Shown: in pieces, positions 33,647-50,504 of the stretch
Numbering within the stretch: position 1 is the stretch's first letter
Layout of the letters: every line of letters begins with the position of its first letter
Source: Spirosoma endbachense
Lineage (GTDB): Bacteria; Bacteroidota; Bacteroidia; Cytophagales; Spirosomataceae
Assembly: GCF_010233585.1 (NCBI RefSeq)
Contig: NZ_CP045997.1
Location: forward strand, 6,409,545-6,473,544
DNA: 64,000 bases
Direction: 5' to 3'
Program-made: the position numbers and the translations under genes
The notes under the pieces: model-generated
The model's database searches: none
What the model saw: the letters and a program-made list of their open reading frames with translations, nothing else
Told to the model about the DNA's origin: nothing

Positions 33647-34033
33647 GGATAAAATAAGAATAATGTAAAGCTGCCAATAAAGGTAGGCTTTTCAAGTCAC
33701 ATAAGTTCAAATAGGGTGACTATATCGTTCAGGAGATTATACTAAATGATGGGAGTGGGATTATAAACTCTGTAATTGTCTCGCAATTACAGGAAAATTA
33801 AACTGGACAATGCTCATGCTGTAAAAGCCTGCCTGGAAAATAATCAGGTAAGAGTCTTAAGGTAAACGATGCCATGCTAAGAACAGAGAATTTCAGGTAA
33901 AAGCTCGAAAATTCGCATACAAAAAATGCTTGGCTATTTTACGAGAACTTAAGAGTGGGAATGTCGATTAGGCAAGCCACTTCCAGATTTAAAAGCCCTC
34001 TAAACAGAAATAAATCTTTAAAATAGAGAAACT
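33647..34033. other. Intergenic region between divergent genes
   Basis: This region separates the FecI-like gene from the broken secreted-protein gene. It should contain both promoters, but no full TAnnTTTG element was found. No coding sequence is seen. Confidence 0.35.
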
Positions 34034-34554
34034 ATGAAAAGTTACATCCTTAAACTTTTGTTGTGTATTCTGACCTTGCTACCCACCCTGATATATGGTC
34101 AGCAGAAAACCAGTCCGAATCCCGTAAAATCCGTTAAGGGATTGCCGGAAGGTACCGATTCGATACTCGTTGAGTATGCAACGCTGATGAAAATTGCCCG
34201 GAAATATGGTTTGGAAAATAATTGGAGCTTTACGCCTACGGCAGGCAATCCCAGGGGTAAGTCGCCCAAAAGGATCTTTTTAAAAATGAGCCTAGAGTAA
34301 TTTGATGACTGGATGAAAACTTTTTCATTCGTTGAGGAAAAAGTAAAATTTTGCAGCAATTCTTTTTAGTGGATTTTCAGAAAGTGAGCACTGTTCAGGA
34401 GTACACGGCCTTGAAACGAGCTTATGTGAAGAAATACCCGGACTATTTAAAAGACGAAATGGGTTTTCGGGAGGCCGACATCCAGAAGGAAGAAAAGCAT
34501 CCTGAATTAGTTTCGCTAAACACGCCTAATTTTCGGCCATCCGTTAAAAAATAA
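34034..34554 (+). pseudogene. Small secreted protein gene with a stop and a frameshift
   Basis: The first part encodes a signal peptide (YILKLLLCILTLLPTLIYGQ) and continues to KRIFLKMSLE, then TAA. The same frame resumes directly as FDDWMKTFSFVEEKVKF, and after a T-run a +/-1 shift leads to QQFFLVDFQKVSTVQEY and on to a clean C-terminus (NTPNFRPSVKK). Read together the three parts make one coherent protein of about 170 residues. The family is unknown. Two independent lesions argue against sequencing error. It lies next to the integration site of the mobile element. Confidence 0.55.
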
Positions 34555-34595
34555 ACAACAGTAGTAGTACTCTTTTCTGGCTGTATGATAAGCTT

Positions 34596-34635
34596 GCGGA
34601 CTTTAGTTATGCGGCTAAAGTCCGCATTCATTTTT
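34596..34635 (+). terminator. Rho-independent terminator
   Basis: GCGGACTTTAG pairs with CTAAAGTCCGC across an 8-nt loop, followed by ATTCATTTTT. It lies 42 bp after the broken secreted-protein gene. Confidence 0.8.
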
Positions 34636-34810
34636 AGACTTCATTGGGCTTAGTGCAAAGAGGGCTTCATGTACGAAATGTCTTTTTTATATGGGAAGCT
34701 CCGCTAGAACACCCAAATAATAGCATACGCATCCTGATAATGACCTTTTTCTTGAAGGTTTGAGCGTTTCCCATTCGGGTAAAAGCTATGTATTTGCTGT
34801 TTCGGAAACA

Positions 34811-34845
34811 AAAAACCGCCTGTATGCTTCATACAGGCGGTTTTT
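34811..34845 (-). terminator. Original tRNA-Arg terminator, displaced by the insertion
   Basis: AAAAACCGCCTGTATG pairs with its complement over a 3-nt loop; on the minus strand it is followed by a run of T. It begins 10 bp beyond the left copy of the tRNA 3' end, exactly where a tRNA terminator should sit if the element were absent. Confidence 0.8.
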
Positions 34846-34855
34846 CTACTGTTTC

Positions 34856-34870
34856 GTGCTCCCGAAGGGA
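34856..34870. other. Attachment site, distal copy
   Basis: GTGCTCCCGAAGGGA repeats the 3' end of tRNA-Arg. The match continues imperfectly (CTCAAA against TTCGAA), as expected past the crossover point. Confidence 0.85.
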
Positions 34871-35500
34871 CTCAAATATGTTTTTGATTATCAGGCATTT
34901 AGGTGCAACTTTAAATAAGCTGTATCAAAACTGTATCGACACCAATTGGTCAGTTAGCTTAAGCTCGTCAAGAATTATGGTTTCCGTTTGTACCTACACG
35001 TACTTTTATAAACGTACAATGAAGGTTGAATACAAGTAGGATACTAGGTGACTAGGAATCAGTTTAAGGAGGATTTTCTATACGGGCTTCTTGCTAAGGG
35101 ATCATCAATGAGTACAACAATTGCCAATTTAGAGGGCCTTATCCATTCCAGCCCAGATTTCAGGAAAGATTATTATATAGCAGTATAGGTTGAGGAGATT
35201 GTTTCTGAAGTTAAAACAAGATAACTAAAAAGCTCACTCTTGCCTGCCTACTCTAGTTATCCTGGGTATTCAATCGTAGCCGCTAATCGAGTAATGTCAG
35301 TGTGATAATCTCCTTATTTAGTTTGCTTGTAACTTACCATGATTAGTGCAAAATACTAATATTACGAGTCTGTTCACAGAACAAATTTTACTATTAGAAG
35401 ACAGTATACAGTTTATCTTGAGATTATCATTTTACAACAAATAAATATAATTTATTTAACTTAAATAATTCGTATAAATGTTTAAGTCTGTGAACAAAAA
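34871..35500. other. Left end of the element, no gene assigned
   Basis: This region contains a recombinase arm-site candidate and AT-rich sequence. A 26-codon frame at 35108-35188 with AAGGAGG ahead of it could be the start of a truncated gene. Nothing else is supported. Confidence 0.4.
34922..34937 (+). promoter_or_regulatory. Recombinase arm-type site candidate, left
   Basis: GTATCAAAACTGTATC occurs here and again, same orientation, at the integrase end of the element. Paired identical sites near both attachment sites suggest integrase or excisionase binding. Confidence 0.5.
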
Positions 35501-37228
35501 TCATTTAATTTTTACAAAATCAACACCCACTCTGGCAGGATGACCGAAAGCGTGATTAGCTATCCTTTGGGTATAATCACTTCTTAAGGTAGTAATATAT
35601 TCAACATCAAAATAATTTAGATTCTGATCAAATTTTTCTCTTGCATAATTATTTGTTATATCCCAAATTCTAATTTTGTTGCCGATAAGCTTATTATTTT
35701 CAACATTATAAACTTTCGGTTTTATATAAAAAGGTTTATAGAGAAAACGGTTTAGCACTTCTATATTATGAACTAATTTTCCAATTAACCCATTTTGTAA
35801 AGCAAGGTCACCTTTTAATTTCTTGGAGTCATCCTCAGAATTCGAAAGAATTAATTCTTTAATTTTTTTGAGCTCTGGTTTTTCTAAATCGCCCCAATAA
35901 ACTGCCCTTCTGTTTGGTAAAAAACTCAAGAAAGCTGTATCTCCCAATCTTAACGCTAATTCTAAATCGTTAAATTCAGTTCCTTTTACAAAGTAAAAAT
36001 TGTGATCAATTTTATTTGGATAATAACAATCACATAGAGCTGTTACGCACAAAAAATAATCATTCCCTTCACCTTTAAAAATATCTCCGAAGTTCAGATT
36101 AGGTATGTCGTCCGGATTTAGGCTCTTTACAGAAACAGAATTATAAAAAACATTCAATTGAAACAGGTCTTCTATGCTTGGCTCTTTGTTTTTCAGTTCA
36201 TTACTTTTAAAATCTAAGAAGTCTTCTTTCAATAATTCAAGCTTAGCTGTTCTCAATTTTAATGTTGCTTGCTCTAACAATAACTTCTTGATAATAATGC
36301 CAAAAGTCTTATCATCCTTAAGATGATTTCTAAATTGAAAAAGAGCTTCTGTTGAAGACTTTAATATAGTTTCATCAATAAAACTTTCATTTGAGTTAAA
36401 AACAGATTGCATTTCTAATCCCAATAACTGAAAAAAACTTCCATTATTTTTTATTACAATTTCTGAAATTCTTCCCAAAAGCTTATTATAATCAGCATCT
36501 TCTTTTAAATCTTTTTTTAACGTCAATACAAAAGTATTATTGATGATAAAAGAATTATCTCCTACGTTTAATACTTCATAATCATTATTCGCATATTCCG
36601 GAATAATAACCTTTTCACCTACAAGCGAAATATATATGTAACGTAAAATTAATTCGACAGATTTTTCTCTTATTCTTTCAATAGGGAAATTGTCAATTTC
36701 TATAGCATTTTCTTTAAAGAAATCGTTTATATTATTATTACTATTCCATAATTTCTGAATTTCTTCGGGTTCAATATATTCATAGGTTGTTTTTATACTC
36801 TCAAAATCTTCTTTATTTAATCCAGAAAAATATGCATCCAAAAAAAGCGGAATTTCATTGAAATTTGCTGAACTGGAATATATACAACAGAAGTTTATAT
36901 ATGGTGTGCTAACAGCTTTATTTAACAACTTTAAAGAATATTCTTGTCCTGCAATCCCAGATAATTCCCAATCTAAAAGAATTAAATCTTTTCCTTTAAA
37001 TAAGTAATCTAGAGTTTGGGGATTTTCAAGATTTGCTGCTTCAAACTTATGAACTATTAAGCTTTTTCCATTCTCCTTAAAAGTTTTATAAAGATCTTCC
37101 GATAATTTTTCTTCCATTATATCAGTATTGATCGGAGTCCCCGAGTAAAAATCCTTAGCTTTTTCATCAATAAATACAGCAGAATTGATAGATGAATTCA
37201 ATATGGTGAAGGCTTTAGAACTATACAT
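35501..37228 (-). CDS. Receiver-like conflict-system protein, 575 aa
   Basis: The first 140 residues match the layout of a response-regulator receiver domain: SAVFIDEK (acidic pair D21, E22), LILLDWELSG (phospho-acceptor candidate D86), CCIYSSSAN (Ser at the Thr/Ser switch position, 118-120) and SGLNKEDF (K139 at the conserved Lys position). The remaining 430 residues are not a known output domain to me; they contain CVTALCDCYYP near the middle and NHAFGHPARVGVDF at the end. No DNA-binding HTH is seen. It starts 1 bp after the ATPase gene stops and is strongly AT-rich like it. It probably receives a signal from the kinase-like partner and acts as effector or switch. Pfam's Response_reg_2 may describe the N-terminus; that is from memory. 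Confidence 0.7.
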   Translation of the reverse strand: MYSSKAFTILNSSINSAVFIDEKAKDFYSGTPINTDIMEEKLSEDLYKTFKENGKSLIVHKFEAANLENPQTLDYLFKGKDLILLDWELSGIAGQEYSLKLLNKAVSTPYINFCCIYSSSANFNEIPLFLDAYFSGLNKEDFESIKTTYEYIEPEEIQKLWNSNNNINDFFKENAIEIDNFPIERIREKSVELILRYIYISLVGEKVIIPEYANNDYEVLNVGDNSFIINNTFVLTLKKDLKEDADYNKLLGRISEIVIKNNGSFFQLLGLEMQSVFNSNESFIDETILKSSTEALFQFRNHLKDDKTFGIIIKKLLLEQATLKLRTAKLELLKEDFLDFKSNELKNKEPSIEDLFQLNVFYNSVSVKSLNPDDIPNLNFGDIFKGEGNDYFLCVTALCDCYYPNKIDHNFYFVKGTEFNDLELALRLGDTAFLSFLPNRRAVYWGDLEKPELKKIKELILSNSEDDSKKLKGDLALQNGLIGKLVHNIEVLNRFLYKPFYIKPKVYNVENNKLIGNKIRIWDITNNYAREKFDQNLNYFDVEYITTLRSDYTQRIANHAFGHPARVGVDFVKIK

Positions 37229-37229
37229 T

Positions 37230-40124
37230 TTATTTAGTAATTTGGTTTATTACGAAGCAAGCTCCATTTAAAGAATTATATTTTTTATCGTTAGTTGCGT
37301 AAATATCCAAATTGGCTTCGTTTAAACTTTGCTTTGATAAATAAAGCCCAATCCCTCTGCCATTAGGGCGTTGAGAATAGAACAAATCAAAAACCTTATT
37401 AAGCCTATAGTCAGGTATTTTTTCTCCTGAATTAGCAATAATGATCTCTTTGGGATTCGGTAAATAATCAAGTTTAATAATACGCTGTTCTTTATTTCGC
37501 ATCCAGTAAATAGCATTGTTTATAATATTAATAAATACTGTGTGAATTACCGGCTCTTTAATGCTAATTAAATGTGTTTTAAATTCATCAGAAACTTCAA
37601 GTCTTATGCTATATTCTTCAATCTGATTTTCAAAAAAATCAAGTAAATAATTGTAAATTGTATTTCCTGGAATGTCTTTAACTAATGCACCAGAAATCCT
37701 GTACAACGGAGAAAGTAGCGCATATTTATCTTCCAGTTGTTTGAAATTTCTTTCTAAGAAACCAAACTCCTTAATTGAATTAACTTCTGAATTTTTACTT
37801 AGTTCTCCTAACTGGCTATTTATTTTTGCATACAGTTGATTGAATTCATGGTCGATAATTTCAACTGCAATCCCTAATTGAGCTGTATCTCTGGTTTGCT
37901 CCCATTGGTATTTCATTTGTTCATATTGAGCTTTATAAGCGCCTTGAACTTGTTCTTCGTCAATATCGAATGATAATCGCTTTATATGCTCCACCAACGG
38001 AAATAATGTTTTTCCAGCTTCTTCTAACAGAGTATAATATTGTTTTTCAATCTCGTCAGCAAATTGTATTATCTGATATTTGGAAACTATGCTTTTTATT
38101 GTCGTTTCTTTATTCTCTGATAGAGAAGAAGTTAATCGTTTTGCTCTATCTCTGTATTCTTTAATTAATAAAGCAGATTTTTCATCAAGTTGTTGTCGAT
38201 ATTCATTGAGTGATTTTTCCAGAGAATAAATATATCCGTTATATTTCTTCGTAAAATCAATTTTTAAATCCCTAATTTCTAATTTATCCTGTGCTTTTTT
38301 ATTTAATTCTTCCCTTCTCGGGGTAACAGATTCAATATAATTATTTAAACGATTTTCAAACTTATATAACCGTTCTTTTTGCGTTTCAGTAGGTCTATAT
38401 CTTCTAGGAACTTTAGGAATTAATCCTTTAAGGTCTAAGTCAAGCTTTTGAAGTTCATCTAAAATATACTCAACTTCTGAGTATGTGATATTGATATTAT
38501 CTAGTTTTTCATCTAATGTATTGAGAAGACTTTCATACTTAGTTTGGTGTTCATCTAATTTTTGAGGGTAAGTATTCAATGCTTTAGTGAATGCAATCTT
38601 TTCTACTTTTTCTCTAGCTTTGTCTGCCTCTAAAGCTTTATTTTGATCTTGAATCTCAATTAATTTATCTCTAAAAAGCGACTGTTTAGGTGTTGTTGCA
38701 AAAAAATCTTGTGCTAAGGCAATAAAAAAATTTGTAGCATCACTGGTGAATGCTCGGTATTGGGCATTGTTTATTAATCCCTCTCTACTAGACTTATCTC
38801 TTAAATCAGGGTTTCTTTCTCTGGTCAGAGCTATATAACCATACATTCTTCGATAAGAAAAATAATATGTACCTGCTCTTTTAGACCTTCTAAGTTCAAA
38901 GTTCAAAAAGTCGGCATTTTCTCTTCCATAAGGTAACACCCTGAAATCATCTCTGAATACGTATAGGCCTCCATACTCTCTAACTTTAGTTGAGATTTTT
39001 TCAAATTGGATTTCTGATAAATTCGAAGAATTTTCTATTCCCTGAGAATATCCTAATTCAATTGGAATACTACCATAAAAAGAACGTTTATCTTTTTTTC
39101 TGGGATTAGTATAGTTGTAGTCAATGGTTTTATCAAATATTCTTAAAATACCATCAAAAGTACCATTTCCGTCAAAACGCCCCTTTATATAGACATCCGC
39201 TAAATCAAAATCAGATTTTTCAAAAAAGTTACCTTGTTTAGTTAACAAATCATAAGTTTCTAAATCTTTATGAATGTTAAAAACAGCTTCTATTTTGATT
39301 GAAGTTTCTTTAAAAGGGTTAGTAAACCCTATCAGGCTTGATGTAACAAAGTTGCCTTCGTCTATTTTGTCCTCATCTTTTTCTGATAATTCTATAATTT
39401 GGTTTATAGGATTAAATACTAAAAACATTGTCCCGTGTGAATCATCAGAATTATAGAAGGATAATATATTATTCAGAATTGGTTTTTCCAATTCTGAATT
39501 TATCGTATCTGAAATAATATCGAATTTTAATTCTATTTGTTTTCCCTCCCAAATTGGACTATTATCTGAATCAAATTCTTTGTCAAAATTCGATAAAAAC
39601 ATATTTTTCAATTCATGGAAATCCACATTAATCGATTCTGTTTTTTCAACAGACCTAATCGGAATTGTAATATCATCCAGAAATAAATTATAATTTTCTA
39701 ATAATCTCCAATCGAAATATATTGCTTGCAGTGGATAACCGATTTTCTTTGTAAGCATCAGCATTGGATTACCTAAATAAGCTACGGATAAGCGTCCAAT
39801 ACCTTTTTCTCCGGCTTTAATACGTGGTCTTTTCCATAAAGTATCCTCGGATTCTTCCTCTAATTCTGCCCTTGACTTGGAGTCTGTTCCAAGTACTAAC
39901 CACTTATCTAAAACATCAGTGCCGGACATTCCTTTTCCGTCATCAGAAATTACAAAATAAGATTTTGAAAGTCCGTTGTAGCCTTCTTTAAATAAATCAG
40001 CGCTTAATTTATCCGCATAAGCGTCGTAACCGTTTTTCCATAACTCGGTAATTGCCGTAGGCAGATCTGCAATTTGTCCTTTCCCGAGTAAGTCTACCGC
40101 CCTTGCTTTTGTTCTAAACTGCAT
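37230..40124 (-). CDS. Dual-GHKL protein: MORC/HSP90-like ATPase plus histidine-kinase-like ATPase
   Basis: Residues 20-115 form an HSP90/MutL/MORC-type ATPase: ITELWKNGYDAY (E27, N31, D34), SDDGKGM (60-66) and AGEKGIGR (104-111). About residues 480-740 are a long charged coiled coil. Near residue 758 comes IDHEFNQ, at the place of a histidine-kinase H-box. It is followed by a second ATPase with NIINNAIYW (N box), IANSGEKIP (G1), FDLFYSQRPNGRGIGLYL (F and G2 boxes) to the end. The family of HEF-type kinases in Pfam (HEF_HK, from memory) fits this C-terminus. It overlaps the methyltransferase gene by 11 bp and precedes the receiver-like gene by 1 bp. MORC-like ATPases next to DNA methylases are known from predicted restriction systems. 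Confidence 0.8.
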   Translation of the reverse strand: MQFRTKARAVDLLGKGQIADLPTAITELWKNGYDAYADKLSADLFKEGYNGLSKSYFVISDDGKGMSGTDVLDKWLVLGTDSKSRAELEEESEDTLWKRPRIKAGEKGIGRLSVAYLGNPMLMLTKKIGYPLQAIYFDWRLLENYNLFLDDITIPIRSVEKTESINVDFHELKNMFLSNFDKEFDSDNSPIWEGKQIELKFDIISDTINSELEKPILNNILSFYNSDDSHGTMFLVFNPINQIIELSEKDEDKIDEGNFVTSSLIGFTNPFKETSIKIEAVFNIHKDLETYDLLTKQGNFFEKSDFDLADVYIKGRFDGNGTFDGILRIFDKTIDYNYTNPRKKDKRSFYGSIPIELGYSQGIENSSNLSEIQFEKISTKVREYGGLYVFRDDFRVLPYGRENADFLNFELRRSKRAGTYYFSYRRMYGYIALTRERNPDLRDKSSREGLINNAQYRAFTSDATNFFIALAQDFFATTPKQSLFRDKLIEIQDQNKALEADKAREKVEKIAFTKALNTYPQKLDEHQTKYESLLNTLDEKLDNINITYSEVEYILDELQKLDLDLKGLIPKVPRRYRPTETQKERLYKFENRLNNYIESVTPRREELNKKAQDKLEIRDLKIDFTKKYNGYIYSLEKSLNEYRQQLDEKSALLIKEYRDRAKRLTSSLSENKETTIKSIVSKYQIIQFADEIEKQYYTLLEEAGKTLFPLVEHIKRLSFDIDEEQVQGAYKAQYEQMKYQWEQTRDTAQLGIAVEIIDHEFNQLYAKINSQLGELSKNSEVNSIKEFGFLERNFKQLEDKYALLSPLYRISGALVKDIPGNTIYNYLLDFFENQIEEYSIRLEVSDEFKTHLISIKEPVIHTVFINIINNAIYWMRNKEQRIIKLDYLPNPKEIIIANSGEKIPDYRLNKVFDLFYSQRPNGRGIGLYLSKQSLNEANLDIYATNDKKYNSLNGACFVINQITK

Positions 40125-41190
40125 TTTTATGATTTTGAATTATAGCTTTACCTATTGCAGTGGCATATTTTGGAGGTACAGCATTTCCAATCATTCTTGC
40201 GGTATTTTCAATACTTGTTGCTTTAAAAATATAGGTTTTAGGAAAAGACTGTAATACAGCTCCCTCTCTTAATGAAATTGCTCTGTCTTCTTCAGGATGC
40301 CCGAAGCGTCCATTAGAGATACTGAAAAATTTTGTTGTAATTGTAGGGGATGGTCTATCCCACCACATACGCCCATAAACGTCACTAAAACCTTCTGTCT
40401 TCCCCTTATGACATTTTGGCGCTAAATTTTCATCATCAACATACGCCATTCGTCCACCTCCATCTTTGGGGGTTACAGCTAATCGATCTAAGTTTACTTT
40501 TTGTAAGCCTGCAACTGTATGTAAAAAATCTGAAGAATCCTTGTGCCCAGGTCTAACTTTTGGGAATCCATTATGCTCACCGATAACGTCTCGAACAGTT
40601 ATTTTTTTCTCTTGAGCTATTACCGGTATTAATTCTTTTGATGAAACACGATTGGCAATTAATGTAAATCTTTTTCTATACTGAGGAACTCCATAATTGC
40701 TAACTTCATGTACATCAAAATGAACTTTATATTTATTTTCTGCTAACCAATTAATAAATTCGTCTAACCCACTTTCTTCCTTGCGTTTTAAAACGCCAGG
40801 AACATTTTCTACAACAACATAACCCGGATTAAAATATTCTACAAAGCGTTTAAACTCGATAAGTAGATTTTTTGATTTATTCGATTTCGTCTTGTCTGTA
40901 TATATTAGGCTCCAAAATTGGCAAGGGCTACATCCGATTAAAATAAGTTCGTCATCGTTTTTAAAGAGGGAAAGTTGTTCTTGAAGAGTCTCTTCCTTTA
41001 GATTAAAAACATCGGCATGAATAAATTCTGCACCATGAATGTTAGCCTCATAAGTAGATTTGCAATTTCCATCAAAATCAATCCCAGCAACTATTTGAAC
41101 TCCAGCTTCTTGCATTCCAAAACTCATTCCACCTCCAGAGCAAAAGAAATCCACGGCTTTCAGGCCACATTTTGTCTTTGTAGTCTCCAA
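40114..41190 (-). CDS. DNA (cytosine-5) methyltransferase
   Basis: This 358-residue enzyme methylates C5 of cytosine in a short DNA target. Motif I is VDFFCSGGGMSFG (13-25), motif IV GCSPCQFWS with nucleophile C90, motif VI VVVENVPGVL (E128), motif VIII PQYRKRFTLIA (169-179) and motif X MIGNAVPPKYATA near the end. A target-recognition region of about 100 residues lies between VIII and X. All catalytic parts are intact. It opens the three-gene operon; a perfect TACATTTG promoter element lies about 107 bp upstream. No restriction endonuclease gene adjoins it, so self/non-self marking may serve the ATPase and receiver proteins instead. Confidence 0.95.
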   Translation of the reverse strand: METTKTKCGLKAVDFFCSGGGMSFGMQEAGVQIVAGIDFDGNCKSTYEANIHGAEFIHADVFNLKEETLQEQLSLFKNDDELILIGCSPCQFWSLIYTDKTKSNKSKNLLIEFKRFVEYFNPGYVVVENVPGVLKRKEESGLDEFINWLAENKYKVHFDVHEVSNYGVPQYRKRFTLIANRVSSKELIPVIAQEKKITVRDVIGEHNGFPKVRPGHKDSSDFLHTVAGLQKVNLDRLAVTPKDGGGRMAYVDDENLAPKCHKGKTEGFSDVYGRMWWDRPSPTITTKFFSISNGRFGHPEEDRAISLREGAVLQSFPKTYIFKATSIENTARMIGNAVPPKYATAIGKAIIQNHKNAV

Positions 41191-41296
41191 TGCTAAACTT
41201 ATTTAATAAGGTATTTTCAGATTTTAAAATCACAAATAGGCTTGTATAAGCTCATTATACAATTACACCACCATTGTTATCATAATATAGTGTATA

Positions 41297-41304
41297 CAAA
41301 TGTA
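41297..41304 (-). promoter_or_regulatory. -7 element TACATTTG ahead of the methyltransferase operon
   Basis: This is an exact TAnnTTTG match on the minus strand with a leader of about 100 nt to the methyltransferase ATG. A TTG lies 23 bp further upstream. It survives intact between the operon and the inserted IS. Confidence 0.4.
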
Positions 41305-41354
41305 GGAGCTTTTAGGAAAAGCTACACAAGAAATCTATTGTTATTATTGATATG

Positions 41355-42209
41355 TAAGAACCTGTTAAAAAATAGGTTGAAGACTCAGAAAAGACAGAAT
41401 TAGTCAATCGTTGGGGATGAGCTGATCAAAGCCATACCCCTCCTTGACTGATTCCGCCGGGAAAGTTATCCAAGAAATCTTGGCTGACAAGAGAAATCGA
41501 AAATATTCCCTGCGCCGTATTTTTGATGCCCTGCTTTATATCACTAAAACAGGCGGCCAGTGGCGCCAAATGCCTAATGACCTACCGCCTTGGCCATTAT
41601 GTTATTACTACTTCCGGAATTGGAGCGCCGAAGCAATGGCGCAACAACGGCACTTGGGAAAAGCTTAATAAAGCGTTCGTCGAACGCAGACGAAATAAAG
41701 CTAATCTAGAAGCCTCACTAGTGTGGGTGTAATTGATTATCAGGGTGTTAAATGTAGCGAATAGAGTGTAGTGTCTAAGGCTATGATGGCTGCAAGTAGA
41801 TTAACGGCCCTAAGCTGCATATTGTAGTCGATACGTTAGGACTGGTTTTGGTTGTCGTCGTCCATGCCGCCAATATTCATGATAGTCCGGCGGCACGACT
41901 AGTGATAAGTCGGCTAGCTCTGCTAGGTTTTGAACAGATCAATAAGCTCTTAGCTGACAGCGGCTATGGCAAGAAGTTAGCGGGTTGGATGAAAAAGTCG
42001 TATGGACTGATTCTAGAAGTGGTTAAGGTGAGCGAGTTGGCTGGTTTTTAGATGATACCCATGCGTTGGAAAGTTGAGTGGACGTTTGCCTAAAGAATTG
42101 GTCACGACGCTTGAGCAAGGACTATGAATGTGGGGTTAATTCACACGAATCGTTTGTATATTTATCCAATATCAACCGAATGCTTAAGCATTTTTAAACA
42201 GGTTCTTAA
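41355..42209 (+). mobile_element. IS5-family insertion sequence, degraded
   Basis: Terminal inverted repeats begin AAGAACCTGTTAAAAAA on the left and AAGAACCTGTTTAAAAATG on the right (complement), with TTA/TA at the junctions. The length of about 0.85 kb fits the IS1031-like group. The transposase inside is broken. Confidence 0.75.
41444..42051 (+). pseudogene. IS5-family transposase, multiply disrupted
   Basis: The N-terminal IS5-type domain is visible (KYSLRRIFDALLYITKTGGQ, WRQMPNDLPPW). After frame changes the DDE core appears as KLHIVVDTLGLVLVVVVHAA and NIHDSPAARLVISRL, with a stop codon before GPKLHIVVD and another shift near the end. The sequence cannot make an active transposase. It is oriented opposite to the methyltransferase operon. 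Confidence 0.8.
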
Positions 42210-42357
42210 AGTTTAATGCATTTGAAATAGATTTTATTCTATTACCTCCAATAACTGTATTATACAGCGGTAAACTGTCATAGTTTTGTCCAAGCCATCT
42301 TAATGAGCCTTTTCCTAAAATCTTTTCAAGAATAATTATTGATTCATTAGTAAGCAT
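42184..42357 (-). pseudogene. 5' fragment of a gene cut by the IS
   Basis: An ATG opens a frame reading MLTNESIIILEKILGKG, SLRWLGQNYDSLPLYNTVIG, GNRIKSISNALNFK and then enters the IS, where it stops. The composition matches the AT-rich cargo. The family is not recognised. It reads toward the methyltransferase gene, so the lost gene was the next one upstream in the same direction. Confidence 0.5.
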
Positions 42358-42748
42358 ATTTTAAATCAATATTTAATAAGTTGTAGAAGTTATGGCCTTT
42401 CCTTATAATAAAAATAAAATAAATTTAATATTTAAGCAGCCTCTTTGTGCCTAATTTAATCCATCTCTCAAACATTATGTTTGGAGGCGTGAATTTTATG
42501 AACTCTTATAGATCATTTATAGATATTGATAATCAACGTCTTACATTGTGTTATTCTACTTCTGTACCAAAATAGGAGCAATTACTGTTAAAATTGATTT
42601 GTTATATAGATTATTTCTATATTAAAATAATATTGATAGATTATTTCTATTTAGTGAAGACAGCTTGAGAAAGTATATCTTGTCATAGTAGTACGTGAAA
42701 ATTTATTCGTTATTCATATCGAATAAAGGAGGGGGCTAACCCCCTCTT
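42358..42748. other. AT-rich intergenic region within the element
   Basis: No gene, hairpin or promoter consensus was found here. It separates the methyltransferase operon from the ATP-grasp pair. Confidence 0.35.
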
Positions 42749-42955
42749 TTATTCGCCCCTATAAGCTTTATCCATTGCCTCATCTACCCGCTTTTTCATT
42801 TCATTCTCAGAGGGGCTTTCAACTTGTAGATGATAAACTGTCTTTCCCCTTTGGCCTCTGCCCAGATTGATGCGAAACTTGTAAGCTAGCTTGCCATGAA
42901 TATTGAGGCTCCCATCGGGTAAGTAATCGGGTATGTCATCGGTTGGCTCTGGCAT
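42749..42955 (-). CDS. Small protein (68 aa) overlapping the ATP-grasp ligase
   Basis: I do not recognise this protein. The N-terminus is acidic (MPEPTDDIPDYLPDG) and a basic middle follows (INLGRGQRGKTVYHLQV), with a helical C-terminus (ENEMKKRVDEAMDKAYRGE). It overlaps the end of the RimK-like gene by 20 bp, so the two are translated together. Being small, coupled and Glu/Asp-rich at both ends, it could be the substrate of the ligase, but there is no repeat or leader typical of a known graspetide precursor. Confidence 0.55.
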   Translation of the reverse strand: MPEPTDDIPDYLPDGSLNIHGKLAYKFRINLGRGQRGKTVYHLQVESPSENEMKKRVDEAMDKAYRGE

Positions 42956-44027
42956 AAGTCTTTTTGTTTACTTGGTTTAACTTCTCATAAAAATTGGTGT
43001 GTAAGCTCGCGACCTGGGGATGATTAGCTAGATGAGTGACATCTCCCATTACATGAGCCACGTATATCTTACCATCATCATCAGTAAACGTATCAGTGCG
43101 GTAAGCACCGTAGCCTTCTTTAGTGGTTGCTCCTCGCTTTTTTTCTTTTATACAATATTCAATCAGGTTCTTAAAGAAGTTAATACCTGTTATGTCAATA
43201 ATCTTGGTCCCTGGATTGCCGTTTACCTCGATGACATAGCTAATACCTTCCTTATCCTTCATCAAGTCTACGCCTGAGTACTCTAAGCCAACTGCTTTAC
43301 TGGCATCAATACAGAGCTGTTGATCTTCTTTTGATAGGACGAGCTTGCGGCCAGAACCCGACTTGGATAGGTTGGCCCGAAAGTCGCCTTTGTTGGCCGT
43401 TCGTTCCATAGCTGTTACTACTTCATCACCTACCACAATCGCTCGTATATCAGTGAAATTACCGTCAATGTAGCGCTGAAGCTTTACATTGATTTCATGC
43501 TTATAAAAACTCTCTAGGGTTGTGTTAGCTGATAGCTTGGTTTCCAGAATTGAAACACCTGAACCTTGAGAGCCATATACTGATTTAACGACAACTGGTA
43601 AACCGTCCATAAGATCTTCAATGATGTATTGAACGTGAGCCGGGGCTTTTGACCAAACCGTCTTAGGGGTTTTTAAGCCAGCTTGTGAAAGCCGAAGCGT
43701 TGTTTGGATCTTATTTGAGGCAGTACGAAGCGGTTCTCCTTTTTGTGGGGAGTAGATCCCCAGATTATTGTTTAAGTGTTCCAGGACAACCGTTTTGTGT
43801 TCTAATTGTCCTGAAAGCCGGGGAATGATAAAATCGTAATCTTTTATTTTTAATCGTTGGGGTTTTTCCAGTTCTGGATTGCCATCATAGATACGATCAT
43901 AGCCGCTAACGTTTTCACTGATGTACAGATACAAGTCTAAAGGCTCGTAGGCTTGCAAAGTACAATCCGTCTCTTTGGCGGCTTCTAGGAGATACTTACC
44001 GGCAGTACCTAGTGTTAGGATATGCAT
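42936..44027 (-). CDS. RimK-like ATP-grasp ligase
   Basis: This 363-residue protein has an ATP-grasp fold like RimK and glutathione synthetase, which join an amino acid to a carboxyl group at the cost of ATP. The ATP-binding loop PVVVKSVYGSQGSGVSILE and the metal-binding end YVIEVNGNPGTKIIDITG are intact, as is EYSGVDLMKD. An additional 70-residue C-terminal segment (DGKIYVAHVMGDVTHLANH and onward) is not part of the core fold. It is encoded with a 68-residue partner on a mobile element, which suggests modification of that partner or of a phage or host protein. The substrate is unknown. Confidence 0.8.
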   Translation of the reverse strand: MHILTLGTAGKYLLEAAKETDCTLQAYEPLDLYLYISENVSGYDRIYDGNPELEKPQRLKIKDYDFIIPRLSGQLEHKTVVLEHLNNNLGIYSPQKGEPLRTASNKIQTTLRLSQAGLKTPKTVWSKAPAHVQYIIEDLMDGLPVVVKSVYGSQGSGVSILETKLSANTTLESFYKHEINVKLQRYIDGNFTDIRAIVVGDEVVTAMERTANKGDFRANLSKSGSGRKLVLSKEDQQLCIDASKAVGLEYSGVDLMKDKEGISYVIEVNGNPGTKIIDITGINFFKNLIEYCIKEKKRGATTKEGYGAYRTDTFTDDDGKIYVAHVMGDVTHLANHPQVASLHTNFYEKLNQVNKKTYARANR

Positions 44028-44077
44028 AGGGATTAGAGATTTGGGAAAAAGGTAAAATGGTCGTTATTGATGCATAT

Positions 44078-44122
44078 CAATTGCCAATTCATATATCGCT
44101 CCGAAGGCCGTTTTGGCAATTG
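44078..44122. repeat. 10-bp inverted repeat upstream of the ATP-grasp gene
   Basis: CAATTGCCAA and TTGGCAATTG are separated by 25 bp in the gap upstream of the ligase gene. A possible operator. About 20 bp beyond it GGGGGGCTGTG recurs, part of the 34-bp repeat found at the primase gene. Confidence 0.45.
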
Positions 44123-44297
44123 CAATTTGGCTCAGTGCGCGTCTAGGGGGGCTGTGTGTGCCAGTGCCACGATTTTTGCATTTTTTAAGGGTTAAGTAAT
44201 TGATTATGAGCATTTTTGTTGATTTTTAGATTTCAAAAATTGAAGGTAAGCGTTGCAAAATAGTGATGTGAATGGTTTTTAATGAATTGATTTACAG

Positions 44298-44537
44298 TTA
44301 GTTGTTATATTTTTTGCTTGTAAACGTTGGTTCATTCCAAAGGGTATTTTGTGCAATTTGGCATCCCGCTTGCCTTAAAATCTTCTCTTTAAGATCTGCT
44401 GTGATAGGAATCTGATTACGGTATTTGTGTAGATACTTAATACGCTGTTCTACAGGACGACCTGTTTTCTGCCATAGCTCAGGGCTAGAAAGCACGATCT
44501 CAAATGCTTCATCGGTGGTGTAAGTCTCTTTTTCCAT
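44298..44537 (-). CDS. Hypothetical protein, 79 aa
   Basis: This small, charged helical protein contains TTDEAFEIVLSSPELWQKTG and VEQRIKYLHKYRNQIPITAD. The chosen ATG lies 10 bp after the primase gene ends; an earlier start would overlap that gene by 38 bp. The segment resembles short accessory proteins found beside replication genes in Bacteroidota mobile elements, but I cannot name a family. Confidence 0.5.
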   Translation of the reverse strand: MEKETYTTDEAFEIVLSSPELWQKTGRPVEQRIKYLHKYRNQIPITADLKEKILRQAGCQIAQNTLWNEPTFTSKKYNN

Positions 44538-44547
44538 AGTATGATAG

Positions 44548-45342
44548 TTAGATGATTGATTGTATTGCTTTGTGAGCGTTGGCAATGGTGCGTTGTAGAT
44601 AGCTTTCCAAATACTTGCCTTTTCTGACTGCTAGGTCTGGACTAGTCCTTTCCAAGTGTTGACTAATTTCGATGTCGGTTTTACCTGCTCTGATGAGTCC
44701 ACAGGCTACACCAAAGTCTTGTTCACTACTGCTATTCTTGCTGGGGCTATGCTGATAGAGCGGCATACTATTTATTGCAGTTGTATTTTTATTGAGCACA
44801 GCCCCCCCACAGGGGTAAAAAGTTGACAGCCGGTTTGCGGCTCGACATAGCCGAACAAACGGAAACAATCCACTTTGTAAGCGGTACTTTTCTTTTCGAT
44901 TAGTGAAGCCTGGCAAACGCCCAACGTGATCCGGTTCTGCACTGGCAAGGTCTGCTCCTAATTGAATAGCTAGCGTTTGACAGGATACTTTAGCAATATC
45001 CCGGTTAGCTGGTATCGTTGGAAGAATTAGCCAAGCTTGATAGTTGGTGGGGCTAGTTTCAATCAGCAAACAGGGCTTAAGTCTAGCCAGCTCGCTTAAT
45101 GAATCGAAACTCAGATCATCAAGTAAGACGTATTGATAGCCAATTGGACGGGCATATATATCGAACCCCTTGCTATTCTTATCCCGCAAATAGCGGACGG
45201 TTTCAGATTTTGCTAACTGATCGGGCGTATAGTCCACCCAAAAACCTTCATCGGTCAATCGATTCTTAAGCTGCACCTTATAACTAGCCGCATCGAAAAC
45301 GGACAGGTATCGTTCAATTGCTGTTTGAGTTAAGTTGCTCAT
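44548..45342 (-). CDS. RepB-like primase domain protein
   Basis: In this 264-residue protein the first 170 residues have the primase layout of plasmid RepB-type proteins: GFDIYARPIGYQYVLLDDLS with the metal-binding Asp pair, TSPTNYQAWLIL, and DHVGRLPGFTNRKEK. A linker follows (GAVLNKNTTAINSM), then a C-terminal helical part (FGVACGLIRAGKTDIEISQH). It would lay primers for replication of the element. Unusually, a 34-bp repeat lies inside the gene at the linker and its inverted copy sits just upstream of the start codon. Confidence 0.75.
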   Translation of the reverse strand: MSNLTQTAIERYLSVFDAASYKVQLKNRLTDEGFWVDYTPDQLAKSETVRYLRDKNSKGFDIYARPIGYQYVLLDDLSFDSLSELARLKPCLLIETSPTNYQAWLILPTIPANRDIAKVSCQTLAIQLGADLASAEPDHVGRLPGFTNRKEKYRLQSGLFPFVRLCRAANRLSTFYPCGGAVLNKNTTAINSMPLYQHSPSKNSSSEQDFGVACGLIRAGKTDIEISQHLERTSPDLAVRKGKYLESYLQRTIANAHKAIQSII

Positions 45343-45386
45343 AAGTCTTACTTTTTTACCCCTGTGGGGGGGCTGTGCTCAATAAA
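44788..45386. repeat. 34-bp perfect inverted repeats flanking the primase N-terminal coding part
   Basis: The repeat contains GAGCACAGCCCCCCCACAGG. One arm is 44788-44821, inside the primase gene; the other is 45353-45386, 11 bp ahead of its start codon. The arms are identical over all 34 positions and differ outside. The enclosed 531 bp could invert or the arms could pair in RNA. Confidence 0.85.
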
Positions 45387-45448
45387 TTCTTGTTAGCCTA
45401 ATCTTGGAATTTCGCAGTGACATAAATTCTGGAAAGTTTGGCCAACAC

Positions 45449-45521
45449 CTACATTTGCTACATTTCCTACATGATTGCCGTTTTTTTGATTTTTTGAATG
45501 TAGATCATGTAGAAAATGTAG
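45449..45521. repeat. Iteron-like array: three 9-bp repeats facing three inverted copies
   Basis: CTACATTTG, CTACATTTC and CTACATGAT follow at exact 9-bp steps (45449-45475). After 22 bp of T-rich DNA come ATGTAGATC, ATGTAGAAA and ATGTAG at the same step (45498-45521). The position between the two replication genes suggests a replication origin or an operator. Confidence 0.6.
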
Positions 45522-45596
45522 CTGTTAGGAAAAACTTTTTGAGTTGTCATTCGCACGCGATAGGTTTAGATAACTGATTGCATAACATGCATTTAG

Positions 45597-47027
45597 TTAA
45601 GGAAAAGGCTTGCTTGCATAGACGACATTGCCAATTGTCTGCCTTTTTACCTGTATATGGTTCTTTTCAAGCCTATCCTTGAAATTCTTGAGGTTCAAAA
45701 AGGCAAATCCAGAAATAGTACAAAAAGCCTTGTAATGTTCGTAGATGCTTTGAAGTGATAAATAACTTACAGAAGGCTGGTAGTTTTCTTCCATTAAAAA
45801 GACTGCCACAGTGTCGGCTTCCTGCCGGTATTTAGCCAAGACTTGACTAGCCTTTTCGCTATGTGTAAACCGTTTATTGGCTAGCAGTCGATTCATACCG
45901 CTTAAGATCCAGTTAAACACACCTGACAGTTCTCTCTGGATAATCTTTGTGGGTAATTCAGGGTCTTTCTGCTCATCAGTAATGGTCACCTCAAAGGGTA
46001 CGATCAGGAACCGGCGAAAAAAAGCTTCGGAGTGCTCAACCTCTTTAGGTAGAGTATTACAGTTGAACATAAGCTTGGCGTAATCCCGCATAATAAAGGG
46101 ATCTCGATACAAGAGCTTGGCTTCAACGGGTTCGCCTGATGCGAGTTGCTTGAACACATCACTCTCTAGGCTCCCTTTAATCTCACTGCCATAATTGAGA
46201 AGCTTATCAGCTAGCTTAGCGCGGTGGGCTTCGTTACTTAAACTTTGCAAGGAATAATTCGAAACATTTTGTCCACCCAATAGGGCATTCACTACTTCAA
46301 AAAACACCGATTTACCATTTGAGCCAGTACCATAAAGCAGTAAGACCTTTTCTAGTTTTAGATGTCGGATGAAGACATAGCCGATATATTCGGCTAGGAG
46401 AGATTGTAAATCGGTATCAGGCAGAACCGTGTCCAAATAGCGTTGAAAAATGGGCGCTTTGGCGTTTGCTTGATAAGCGAAAGAGAGCTGATAGGTTAGA
46501 AAGTCTGCTTTATCATGAGGTCGAAGGCGCTGACTGTCTGGGGTAATCTCGTACGTACCATTCTGCATATTGATCAGGACGGTTTGAGGAGATTGCGGAA
46601 GGACAGGGAAATGGCTAGATGAAAGAAACTGGCGATAAAGACGGTCACGAAATTCATAATGGCGTGAGTTGAACTTATCCACGCCCATTTTTTCGGAAGT
46701 TCTACTTAACAGATCCTGTATTTCGTTCTCTTCAGTTACCTGCCAGAAGGCCCTATTATAGAGATAGACAATTCCGTTCCGTCTGCACAAGGCATAACCG
46801 TTAACCTGGGCTTGAGCGAGCAAGTGTTCTACGGTACATATTAAGTAATGCTTTTGGGTAAGTTTACGGTCGGGATCTTCCACAAATACAGGTCCAGCCA
46901 AGTGCCTAAAGTCTGCCTTTTTAATAGTAGCTAATACTTTGGAAAAGATCAGATGAGGCTCCTCAATTGGAAACGACTGATTACTATCTATCAATGGGTT
47001 AGGTTGCACTGTAATGACATTGTTCAT
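45597..47027 (-). CDS. P4-family phage/plasmid primase-helicase
   Basis: This 476-residue SF3-type helicase is of the P4/D5 group, which opens the origin of satellites and plasmids. An N-terminal D5-like part (FWQVTEENEIQDLL) precedes the Walker A loop LYGTGSNGKSVFFE (231-244). Walker B and sensor segments are AKLMFNCNTLPKE and FFRRFLIVPFEVT. The C-terminus has a small winged-helix-like part (LKNFKDRLEKNHIQVKRQT). It is shorter than P4 alpha because the primase domain is absent, and the separate RepB-like gene just downstream may supply it. Confidence 0.85.
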   Translation of the reverse strand: MNNVITVQPNPLIDSNQSFPIEEPHLIFSKVLATIKKADFRHLAGPVFVEDPDRKLTQKHYLICTVEHLLAQAQVNGYALCRRNGIVYLYNRAFWQVTEENEIQDLLSRTSEKMGVDKFNSRHYEFRDRLYRQFLSSSHFPVLPQSPQTVLINMQNGTYEITPDSQRLRPHDKADFLTYQLSFAYQANAKAPIFQRYLDTVLPDTDLQSLLAEYIGYVFIRHLKLEKVLLLYGTGSNGKSVFFEVVNALLGGQNVSNYSLQSLSNEAHRAKLADKLLNYGSEIKGSLESDVFKQLASGEPVEAKLLYRDPFIMRDYAKLMFNCNTLPKEVEHSEAFFRRFLIVPFEVTITDEQKDPELPTKIIQRELSGVFNWILSGMNRLLANKRFTHSEKASQVLAKYRQEADTVAVFLMEENYQPSVSYLSLQSIYEHYKAFCTISGFAFLNLKNFKDRLEKNHIQVKRQTIGNVVYASKPFP

Positions 47028-47065
47028 ATCTTTGTCGGGTATTAACTGATAGGTTAATTATGTAC

Positions 47066-47100
47066 AAAGCCGCTTGCGAGTCTAGAACGCAAGCGGCTTT
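47066..47100. terminator. Stem-loop between the 95-aa gene and the P4-type helicase gene
   Basis: AAAGCCGCTTGCG pairs with CGCAAGCGGCTTT across 9 nt. T-runs are stronger on the plus strand (TTTTTTATT) than on the minus. Confidence 0.65.
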
Positions 47101-47101
47101 T

Positions 47102-47389
47102 TTATTGGCCTATGAACATGGCTTCGAACATATCTTGTAGTTCGTAGAGCTGGCTAATCATTTGCCGGTATTGCATTAACTCATCTTTTTCCATTGCAGG
47201 AACATTAGTAGCTAAATGACGAATAGCATCTCCAACAATAATCCCTAATCCAAGTGGTGTATTGCGGTGCTCATTATCAGCCAATTCAAACATGGCAGTA
47301 ATCATAGGTTCAATGTTAATTGACATACCTGTTTTTGGGTGAGGAAATAGGAGTGGTGTGTTGCCATTACACTTATAGTAATTATTCAT
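47102..47389 (-). CDS. Hypothetical protein, 95 aa
   Basis: This small soluble protein contains GMSINIEPMITAMFELADNE and a helical C-terminus (ELMQYRQMISQLYELQDMFE). No known motif. It sits between the HTH gene and the helicase gene in the replication part of the element, framed by two hairpins. A regulatory or replication-accessory role is likely from context only. Confidence 0.5.
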   Translation of the reverse strand: MNNYYKCNGNTPLLFPHPKTGMSINIEPMITAMFELADNEHRNTPLGLGIIVGDAIRHLATNVPAMEKDELMQYRQMISQLYELQDMFEAMFIGQ

Positions 47390-47430
47390 ACATTTGGAGA
47401 GATAGAGGGGTGAAGCTTCGGTTTTACTCT

Positions 47431-47457
47431 AACCCGGCTGGTAGAAACAGCCGGGTT
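47431..47457 (+). terminator. Terminator-like hairpin with plus-strand T-run
   Basis: AACCCGGCTG pairs with CAGCCGGGTT and is followed by TTTTTA on the plus strand. No plus-strand gene precedes it, so it may end an antisense or small RNA, or act in the leader of the 95-residue gene on the minus strand. The rest of the gap up to the HTH gene (to 47733) shows no gene. Confidence 0.55.
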
Positions 47458-47733
47458 TTTTATTGTAAAGCCATGAACTAGTACTTAGTCCAAGTGCTTG
47501 CTTAATGATGGAAAACAAACTAATAGGGATAAGGCAACGCCTTACATAGAACATATAGACCTTCTGTCTTTGCCATCAGCTAGCAAAACGCGTTGTTAAT
47601 ACCCTGTTAAACTGGAAGTGGATAGGAGTTAATAGGCTAAGTATATAGCCTTACTTGGTAGAAGAGTATAAGGGAATGGCTCAAAATCAGCACATGGATT
47701 TATCACCAATACGTGTTGTGAAGAATGAACTGT

Positions 47734-48015: not shown

Positions 48016-48087
48016 TAGAACTTACCAACGCAAGTAATAAAAAAAATAGTAATAAAAATATTTGTGACTATTTTTTTATAGAAGCCA

Positions 48088-48888: not shown

Positions 48889-48963
48889 TCTGATGCAAAA
48901 TGATTAAATATATTCTACAAGTAGGATCATAAATCACGCGATGGCTCTATATATGATCCCGCA

Positions 48964-49027
48964 AAAAGTGATGCTAGAGCTTACACGTGGATTACATAAT
49001 CCACGTGTAAGCTCTAGCATCACTTTT
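48964..49027. terminator. 31-bp perfect stem-loop at the integrase stop codon
   Basis: The arm AAAAGTGATGCTAGAGCTTA continues for 11 more bases; both arms are identical complements around a 2-nt centre. It includes the integrase stop codon. Probable strong terminator isolating the integrase transcript. Confidence 0.85.
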
Positions 49028-50231
49028 GATAAGAATTAGGCCACTTAATAGCTCGTAAGGCGGTTTCAATTGCATGGCCTGACGTATGTACATATCCCAT
49101 TGTGGTCTGTATATCCGAGTGTTGAGCCAGCTCCTTAACCATTGGCGTTGGTAAGACGGTTGATAGATAGGTAAGGCCAGAATGCCGGGCAGTATGAAAC
49201 GTAACCGCCTTAGTAATTCCGGCCATTCGAATAACCTCTTTAAGATGTTTATTCATTTTCACATGAGACCGTCTAAAGAAAGGTTGTGAATCCGTACGTG
49301 AATAGGTTATTAGTATTCGCTCTGGCTTGCTGTGTCCGTCAGCAGTTGGAAACAATAGCCCAAGCGGTAAACGAGCTTCCTTTTTAGATTTTTGCGTTAC
49401 AAATTCAAGCAGTATGCCCTCATTAGTTTGCAAGATGTGTTTGCGACTAATCCGGGTAATATCGCTGATCCGTAGTGAGGTATAAAAGGCAAACAAAAAG
49501 GCATCACGGTAAAAGGTTAAATGCTGGTTTTCTTCCGTAAATATTAACCGTTCGATTCGCTCGATTTCTTCAATTTGTAAGGCTACCTTATTGACTCGGG
49601 CTTTCTTTGGCCTAAAGTCGTTATAAGGGTTCTGTTGGGGTAAAAAAAGTCCTTTGCGTTCGGCATTGTCCAGGCATTTCTTGATTGCTTGATGATACTT
49701 ATAGATATAATTGGCTCCAAGCCGAAGAGTGGTCTTTAGGTGGAAGTCAAACCGTTCTATAAAGTCCAGAGTTAACGTATCAAATTCCAGATCGTTACCC
49801 GCGTTAAATTCATGCAAGCGCGTCAATACTAATTGAGAATGTTGAAAGGCCCGGTAAGACAGCTCGGGCTTTCTGCGTTGCAACTGCTCCCGATAGTGGC
49901 TTGAAAAGGTGGCCTTCGCTTTATTAGGCTGATTAGCAGCCTTTAGCATCAAGTCAAAATCTTTCAGAGTAAACGCCTGTTTGTATTGACTCTCAAACAG
50001 GGTTTCAAAATCGCTCAGATCCGTTATCTGCTTACGAACTTTACTCATGTGAGTAGGATTCTTCAGCTCATCTTTACGAAAATCCCAGTCCTCTTTTCTG
50101 ACTTTAAAGCCTGTTGCAAAATACCGTCGCAAGCCATTTTGATAGGCTTCAATAACAACGGGTGCTTTACCGTCTTTAGTGGTCTGTTTACGGCGGTTGA
50201 ACAGAAGTCGATACCTTACTTTGTGCGTCAT
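49020..50231 (-). CDS. int: Tyrosine recombinase (integrase) of the element
   Basis: This 403-residue site-specific recombinase uses the MTHKVRYRLLFNRR start; a TTG 42 bp upstream is less likely. The arm-binding domain is at the N-terminus, a SAM-like core-binding domain in the middle (LTLDFIERFDFHLKTTLRLG), and the catalytic domain contains SLRISDI (Arg), FHTARHS (HxxR), LAQHSDIQTTMGYVH (His and Tyr nucleophile). All five catalytic positions are visible. It is divided from tRNA-Arg by about 200 bp containing an arm-site copy. It should catalyse integration at the tRNA 3' end. Confidence 0.92.
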   Translation of the reverse strand: MTHKVRYRLLFNRRKQTTKDGKAPVVIEAYQNGLRRYFATGFKVRKEDWDFRKDELKNPTHMSKVRKQITDLSDFETLFESQYKQAFTLKDFDLMLKAANQPNKAKATFSSHYREQLQRRKPELSYRAFQHSQLVLTRLHEFNAGNDLEFDTLTLDFIERFDFHLKTTLRLGANYIYKYHQAIKKCLDNAERKGLFLPQQNPYNDFRPKKARVNKVALQIEEIERIERLIFTEENQHLTFYRDAFLFAFYTSLRISDITRISRKHILQTNEGILLEFVTQKSKKEARLPLGLLFPTADGHSKPERILITYSRTDSQPFFRRSHVKMNKHLKEVIRMAGITKAVTFHTARHSGLTYLSTVLPTPMVKELAQHSDIQTTMGYVHTSGHAIETALRAIKWPNSYQK

Positions 50232-50289
50232 GGCAAACTGATTGTTTGGTTTGCACCAAACATCTACCGACAACGGCCCAAAAAAATGC

Positions 50290-50431: not shown

Positions 50432-50446
50432 GTGCTCCCGAAGGGA
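50432..50446. other. Attachment site, tRNA copy
   Basis: GTGCTCCCGAAGGGA forms the acceptor and T-stem end of tRNA-Arg and equals the free copy at the other end of the element. Confidence 0.85.
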
Positions 50447-50504
50447 TTCGAACCCCTATCGTCGGTACCGGAAACCGAAATTCTATCCATTGAACTACGG
50501 AAGC
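50433..50504 (-). tRNA. tRNA-Arg (anticodon CCG)
   Basis: The acceptor stem GCTTCCG pairs with CGGGAGC (one G-T). The D-arm is GTTC...GAAT, the anticodon stem TCGGT/ACCGA holds the loop TTCCGGT giving anticodon CCG, which reads CGG. The T-arm has TTCGAAT. The CCA end is not encoded. It is the integration target of the adjacent element and is regenerated intact. Confidence 0.93.

Follow-up and report, generated by a model that had tools for sequence, protein, structure and literature searches.

A 64,000-nucleotide stretch of the Spirosoma endbachense genome (contig NZ_CP045997.1, positions 6,409,545 to 6,473,544; here called the window) carries, on a mobile element, three closely packed genes encoding a cytosine-5 (m5C) DNA methyltransferase, a MORC-type ATPase fused to a histidine kinase, and a receiver protein. 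In our judgment, the chances are even that this trio is a restriction-modification-type defense cassette run by a two-component phosphorelay. The observation is sound, and the family to which the trio belongs has been known as a prediction since 2021. The genes and the domains of their products are as follows:

40114..41190, minus strand: m5C DNA methyltransferase, 358 residues, TTG start (Pfam DNA_methylase, 1.7e-51)
37230..40124, minus strand: MORC-type ATPase fused to histidine kinase (the kinase protein), 964 residues (HATPase_c_3, HEF_HK, and HATPase_c; predicted model and fold matches)
38670..40124, minus strand: MORC-like ATPase and transducer region, residues 1-485 of the kinase protein (Morc3 fold match over 1-485)
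37692..37880, minus strand: HEF_HK box, residues 749-811 of the kinase protein, His759 codon at 37848-37850 (Pfam, 2.5e-20)
37251..37553, minus strand: kinase ATP-binding domain HATPase_c, residues 858-958 of the kinase protein (Pfam, 1.1e-9)
35501..37228, minus strand: receiver protein, 575 residues (Response_reg_2, 7e-23; predicted model)
36449..37192, minus strand: split receiver domain, residues 13-260, Asp86 codon at 36971-36973 and Lys239 codon at 36512-36514
35504..36103, minus strand: C-terminal domain of the receiver protein, residues 376-575, core G...C-x-T-x-x-C-D and R-x-G (motif conservation)

Architecture of the three proteins

The operon runs on the minus strand from the methyltransferase through the 964-residue to the 575-residue protein; the first two genes overlap by 11 bases (40114-40124) and the last two are 1 base apart (37229). 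Coordinates, lengths, overlap, and gap had all been given correctly in a preliminary description of the window, which had also proposed an m5C methyltransferase, a protein with two GHKL domains and a kinase box, and a receiver protein. This anatomy was upheld by a Pfam scan, in which DNA_methylase (1.7e-51), HATPase_c_3 (1.8e-10), HEF_HK (2.5e-20), and Response_reg_2 (7e-23), the four families that had been named for the search, as well as HATPase_c (1.1e-9), each matched above cut-off. No convincing model for the kinase or receiver protein was found in PADLOC (top matches Cas2_II and ZorA at 0.0012) or in NCBIfam (top matches general sensor kinases, far below their cut-offs).

Residue conservation was assessed with 55 aligned rows for the kinase protein, 68 for the receiver, and 66 for the methyltransferase. 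The methyltransferase, whose closest solved relatives are M.HaeIII and DNMT1, has the motifs PCQ, ENV, QxRxR, and GNAVP; PCQ, ENV, GNAVP, and the Q, R, and R of QxRxR are identical in all 66 sequences. In the kinase protein, 26 of the 30 positions checked, including His759 and both ATP sites, are identical in 55/55 rows, as are the GHKL motif residues E27, N31, D61, G63, G65, G105, K107, G108, and G110. Its predicted model (mean predicted local distance difference test [pLDDT] score 81.7; predicted template modeling score 0.57), which like all structures considered here is that of a single chain, matched the MORC fold (Morc3) over residues 1-485 and a kinase fold over residues 743-961; the HEF_HK box was modeled poorly (pLDDT <50 at residues 749-757). 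The protein thus combines GHKL motifs with an S5-type transducer, as expected of MORC/paraMORC ATPases, and a histidine in a helical box adjoining HATPase_c, as expected of a two-component kinase. The MORC-specific S5 motif is the feature that separates MORC from paraMORC (PMC2292703).

The receiver protein (mean pLDDT 87.5) has a receiver fold with the acid pair, Asp, Ser/Thr, and Lys typical of two-component partners, and D21, D86, S/T118, and K239 are present in all 68 aligned receivers. A Foldseek search of PDB and of viral proteins with the whole model returned nothing at E 0.001; the receiver fold was visible in a second look at the model (VIA). The model puts the lysine at K239, outside the Pfam stretch (13-153), and the conserved lysine of Response_reg_2 has been assigned to strand 5 of the domain, which is split (PMC8011034). 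His759 and Asp86, to which the preliminary description had pointed as the partners of a phosphorelay-like layout, are both invariant (55/55 and 68/68, respectively), and the layout is supported by the His box, the receiver residues, and the predicted folds. When the C-terminal domain of the receiver was sought in other protein contexts, 54 matches were obtained, and the 11 inspected resemble pieces of receiver proteins from the kinase-receiver family. The receiver gene apparently diverges fast because tblastn with it gave no plasmid match although receiver genes adjoin the kinase on at least three plasmids.

Gene order and module exchange among relatives

Genome contigs were scanned with the kinase alignment, and the best 80 of 223 relatives were analyzed. 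The receiver gene follows the kinase gene in 77 of these 80 loci, three of which (L020, L028, and L058) have a broken kinase or receiver gene; in the remaining three (L064, L066, and L072), the contig ends within the kinase gene. The methyltransferase lies directly upstream of the kinase in 70 loci (in L058 as fragments), elsewhere within 3.5 kb in five (L010, L061, L076, L082, and L083), and ∼3.6 kb away in L077; it was not found in L040, L051, L062, and L075, of which L040 has just 581 bases upstream. This is the neighborhood survey that the preliminary description had proposed, and the three genes do co-occur. As a control independent of the kinase, 392 genomes of the phylum were searched with Response_reg_2; 18 genomes had a match at E 0.001, and nine (including the window's own) had one above cut-off. 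A kinase gene adjoins the Response_reg_2 gene in all nine above-cut-off genomes, and the order methyltransferase, kinase, receiver recurs in all eight other than the window's; at the 10 sub-cut-off places, no kinase was found within the surrounding 3.2 kb. Because all nine genomes pair receiver with kinase, the eight others in the same order, the arrangement is not due to chance.

Viral contigs yielded 35 loci with a kinase match; in 25 of them, the match does not include the N-terminal 350 to 388 residues. One of the viral-contig loci, L132, is an IS3-truncated E. coli copy. At L132 (9094-13580) and L159 (8799-13581), an IS3-truncated kinase gene and an intact-looking receiver gene adjoin an integrase. 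The stretch of the IS3-truncated copy is at least 80% covered at a place in 485 of 5426 complete E. coli genomes; L129, a trio on a viral contig that is intact, was not matched in the E. coli genomes.

The gene downstream of the receiver was surveyed in the 69 loci whose sequence continues for at least 400 bases past the receiver gene, counting genes of at least 100 residues within 150 bases. L020 was added by hand, L028 (where the match is a piece of its own receiver) was counted as having no downstream gene, and four broken or cut loci and seven with too little sequence were left out. A downstream gene was present in 51 loci, in 35 of them on the strand of the receiver gene and in 16 on the opposite strand, and absent from 18. 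By Pfam family, these genes include Vsr (9), HNH_2 (8), DNA_methylase (5), AAA_15 (5), NOV_C (3), HNH (3), and DUF6602 (2). Counting NOV_C and DUF6602, which we take to be nuclease-like, together with HNH, HNH_2, and Vsr, a nuclease-family gene directly follows the receiver in 25 of 69 loci, or in 30 if AAA_15 is included. In L046, the receiver is followed by an AAA ATPase and then by a DUF2357 + PDDEXK_7 protein.

The analysis of module exchange covered 66 complete trios, of which 63 come from the 80 loci and the other three from the window, L005, and L006. The kinase parts and the receiver domain co-diverge (r about 0.85 over 1412 close pairs); for the methyltransferase, the correlation is weaker (0.52 to 0.69). 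Judged by identity rather than by tree, the best match of the methyltransferase was more than 10 points above the methyltransferase that accompanies the nearest kinase in 19 of 66 trios; for the receiver, this was the case in 11 of 66. When 34 loci were grouped by downstream class, methyltransferases of the same class resembled each other more closely than expected from their kinases (difference 0.033; permutation p 0.003 to 0.004), and receivers did not (p 0.7). This test is weak, as it hinges on two classes and counts related loci as independent; because the class effect vanishes when HNH_2 (p 0.33) or AAA_15 (p 0.25) is omitted, individual cases were relied on instead. L026 and L056, both followed by HNH_2, share 83% identity in the methyltransferase, 38% in the kinase, and 25% in the receiver. 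L047 compared with L057, L060, L071, and L073, all followed by AAA_15, shares 70-76%, 40-42%, and 26-28%, respectively. In these two classes, methyltransferase and downstream gene hence travel together between dissimilar kinase-receiver cores. Between L046 and L047, kinases and receivers are ∼89% alike, the methyltransferases are 46% alike, and the downstream genes differ. The simplest reading of these sequence comparisons would be a kinase-receiver core with restriction cassettes exchanged around it.

The proposed relay, its output, and more distant branches

Gene order, domains, conserved motifs, predicted folds, and module exchange are observations; the signal, phosphotransfer, output, and role in defense that we infer for the trio would be as follows. 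The methyltransferase would mark self DNA and thereby protect it. The MORC-like ATPase is likely to close on DNA as a dimeric clamp, by analogy with MORC2, which acts as a DNA clamp (PMC12216690). On foreign or unmarked DNA, clamp closure would turn on the fused histidine kinase, which would phosphorylate its own His759 and transfer it to Asp86 in the receiver protein. Once phosphorylated, the receiver would, via its C-terminal domain, license DNA destruction by a nuclease. Since no nuclease gene adjoins the trio in the window, unlike in over a third of the relatives examined, the license would there have to reach a nuclease encoded elsewhere or work via the C-terminal domain of the receiver itself.

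No open reading frame (ORF) of 100 residues was found in the window from the receiver stop at 35501 down to 33647, attachment repeat of the element included, and no nuclease domain among the eight element proteins scanned with Pfam (35501 to 50273). The endonuclease gene that adjoins the methyltransferase in type II restriction-modification systems is, thus, absent here and present in part of the relatives. An earlier statement that no endonuclease is recognizable accordingly holds for the window and fails for the family as a whole. L015, L012, and L016, the loci whose methyltransferases are closest to that of the window, likewise have no downstream gene, and a Pfam scan of 41 of their flanking genes showed no restriction nuclease among the 25 of 62 matching families listed.

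This situation would suit a receiver that is itself the effector, phosphorylation freeing a toxic or DNA-attacking C-terminal domain, so that the trio would be complete, as in phosphorelay abortive infection, and the downstream nucleases add-ons. Both the trios whose receiver gene has no immediate downstream neighbor (that of the window and those of 18 of 69 loci, L015, L012, and L016 among them) and the conservation of the C-terminal domain (C399 and G381 in 68/68 receivers, G568 in 67/68, D400 in 66/68, and R566 in 65/68) speak for it. However, no enzyme fold or sequence relative of that domain was found with the whole-protein model and profile searches (the domain was never folded by itself), no invariant set was recognized as nuclease-site-like, and many relatives have adjoining nuclease genes, which makes this explanation unlikely.

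The mobile element bears on another explanation. Its boundaries are marked by the following features:

34856..34876, no strand assigned: copy of the tRNA-Arg end, attachment site (direct repeat, 90% over 21 nucleotides with 50432-50452)
49020..50273, minus strand: tyrosine integrase of the element (Phage_integrase, 9.3e-12)
50432..50504, minus strand: tRNA-Arg, insertion site (ARAGORN; empty site in G001)

The trio operon is the cargo closest to one end, with integrase and tRNA-Arg at the opposite end. The same-genus genome G001 is collinear on both flanks and lacks window positions 33770-50417, the matches of positions 33769 and 50418 being ∼320 bases apart. Integrase adjoining tRNA-Arg, 21-nucleotide repeat, and empty site together confirm the element presumed in the preliminary description. 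It also carries a RimK-type ATP-grasp ligase gene (42936-44027) adjoining primase genes (Pfam), a gene (48088-48888) whose 266-residue product matches nothing in Pfam, PADLOC, or NCBIfam at E 0.1, and, upstream of the methyltransferase (41330-42210), what appears by eye to be a decayed transposase gene.

The copy in the window could be a remnant whose element has lost its former nuclease, methyltransferase and relay persisting as a selfish or neutral leftover. The receiver gene of L009, the closest relative with a full-length kinase protein (88% identical), overlaps by 1 base an ORF that is cut by the contig end and clusters with AAA ATPase genes from other loci (AAA_22/AAA_5 matches), which favors recent loss; so would the absence of any 100-residue coding stretch between receiver stop and attachment repeat and the apparent transposase decay. 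The lack of a downstream gene in L015, L012, and L016 points the opposite way, to a stable trio form rather than recent loss. Moreover, none of the three proteins is truncated, their motifs are intact, and neither a degraded nuclease nor remnants of the relatives' neighbor genes were found in either gap flanking the trio (best matches 20 to 39 residues, E 0.003 to 0.005). On balance, such a remnant seems improbable.

The relay might also have no direct role in cutting and instead control transcription of the cassette, delaying its expression or raising it on stress or infection, in the manner of CapK-CapS or of C proteins, which control expression of their own cassettes. Signaling that controls restriction-modification has been proposed (PMC8011034), and the CapK-CapS kinase pair regulates immune operons after DNA damage (PMC13373217). 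Against this, the Pfam scan of the receiver showed neither a helix-turn-helix nor any other known DNA-binding domain, and the model of the sensor part is that of a MORC ATPase rather than a small-ligand domain; control of transcription is rather improbable.

Related pairs also occur beyond the trio family. The same-genus genomes G011 and G005 encode a shorter MORC-kinase (788 and 792 residues) with a partner (687 or 659 residues) in six-gene runs of matching sizes:

L160, 253-12435: six-gene run with MORC-kinase and partner
L161, 1112-13233: six-gene run with MORC-kinase and partner

In the run of G011 (L160), the one scanned, HEF_HK of the MORC-kinase is just below cut-off and one gene has a PAPS_reduct domain. 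The G011 partner has the receiver C-terminal domain in common (hhalign, 95.9%, E 5.6e-9); a region search with a distant partner returned 25 proteins of 424-735 residues without Pfam label, one of them named response receiver. For Campylobacter, 43 of 81 plasmid records match. In the one Campylobacter plasmid opened (L158, 5989-10439), a 731-residue kinase protein and a 340-residue response regulator adjoin an m5C methyltransferase on the opposite strand. An Allorhizobium plasmid (L008, 6796-11482) has an N6_N4_Mtase gene, a 756-residue dual-HATPase protein, and a 409-residue receiver-like protein in a row. It is conceivable, if somewhat doubtful, that the MORC-clamp histidine kinase and the C-x-T-x-x-C-D receiver are a general, exchangeable on-switch for DNA-modification defense, combined with m5C methyltransferases and varying nucleases and, in distant branches, the MORC-kinase with N6_N4_Mtase (L008) or a PAPS-reductase-like gene run (L160). 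Such a switch would amount to restriction licensed by a phosphorelay.

In the usual picture, restriction offers a fixed choice: DNA is either methylated or cut. If the cassette is indeed run by a phosphorelay, a histidine-kinase relay between DNA clamp and cut would make restriction signaled and tunable, and the MORC-type ATPases of prokaryotes, for which a role in restriction has been predicted since 2008, would gain a measurable output, namely, phosphate on one Asp. The MORC-kinase fusion and the complete set of receiver residues make a concrete test feasible, and this test can be small and clear because invariant residues, module exchange, and trio-only copies are known.

Comparison with known systems

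Detocs uses a His-Asp relay in phage defense, with a nucleotide-degrading enzyme as effector, and is not known to include a methyltransferase or MORC sensor. The relay layout is common to both; the trio has a methyltransferase and a MORC sensor, and none of the three trio proteins has a Pfam match to a nucleoside-phosphorylase-type effector, a feature of Detocs. With the GHKL Shedu protein VcSduA (PMC12137116), the trio shares a GHKL ATPase, which in VcSduA is thought to gate a nuclease in phage defense; however, VcSduA is a single protein with its own nuclease and without kinase, receiver, or methyltransferase. CapK-CapS (PMC13373217) is likewise a kinase-substrate pair serving diverse immune operons, but consists of an anti-sigma-type kinase and a STAS-like repressor, not a His-Asp relay, and has no methyltransferase. 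LlaJI (PMC1459862) combines m5C methyltransferases with a McrB-like and a PD-(D/E)XK subunit, and the downstream genes of L046 suggest the same plan; its four genes include no kinase or receiver, whereas the window has no restriction subunit. Common to the MORC/paraMORC ATPases of restriction systems (PMC2292703) and the trio is an N-terminal GHKL ATPase with transducer adjoining a cytosine methylase, with Vsr in some relatives; instead of a helicase or fused nuclease, the window has a C-terminal histidine kinase and a receiver partner.

The preliminary description had taken the trio for an undescribed system. This was rejected, as the same domain pair with an upstream methylase was predicted in 2021: Bellieny-Rabelo and colleagues defined the HEF_HK and Response_reg_2 domains, and, in 644 regions, found them linked at 91.6%. 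They also described the C5-methylase upstream and the overrepresentation of restriction genes such as Vsr and HNH_2, and suggested that the pair is a paraMORC-related, two-component-like system whose signaling controls restriction-modification (PMC8011034). The link to restriction that the preliminary description had drawn is supported. A functional test of the gene set was found neither in the open-access literature nor in the consulted text of PMC8011034. HATPase and REC, possibly those of the present trio, are named in a figure legend of predicted, unvalidated systems in a 2026 machine-learning paper (PMC13092281). In the window, the linked pair (7e-23 and 2.5e-20, 1 base apart) and the upstream C5-methylase (40114-41190) are present; the one departure is the missing nearby nuclease or Vsr gene, which is frequent, though not obligatory, in the published elements. 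With the same domains, the same neighbors, and the architecture commonest there (HATPase_c_3 + HEF_HK + HATPase_c, 174/222), the copy in the window does not differ in kind from the HEF_HK/Response_reg_2 elements.
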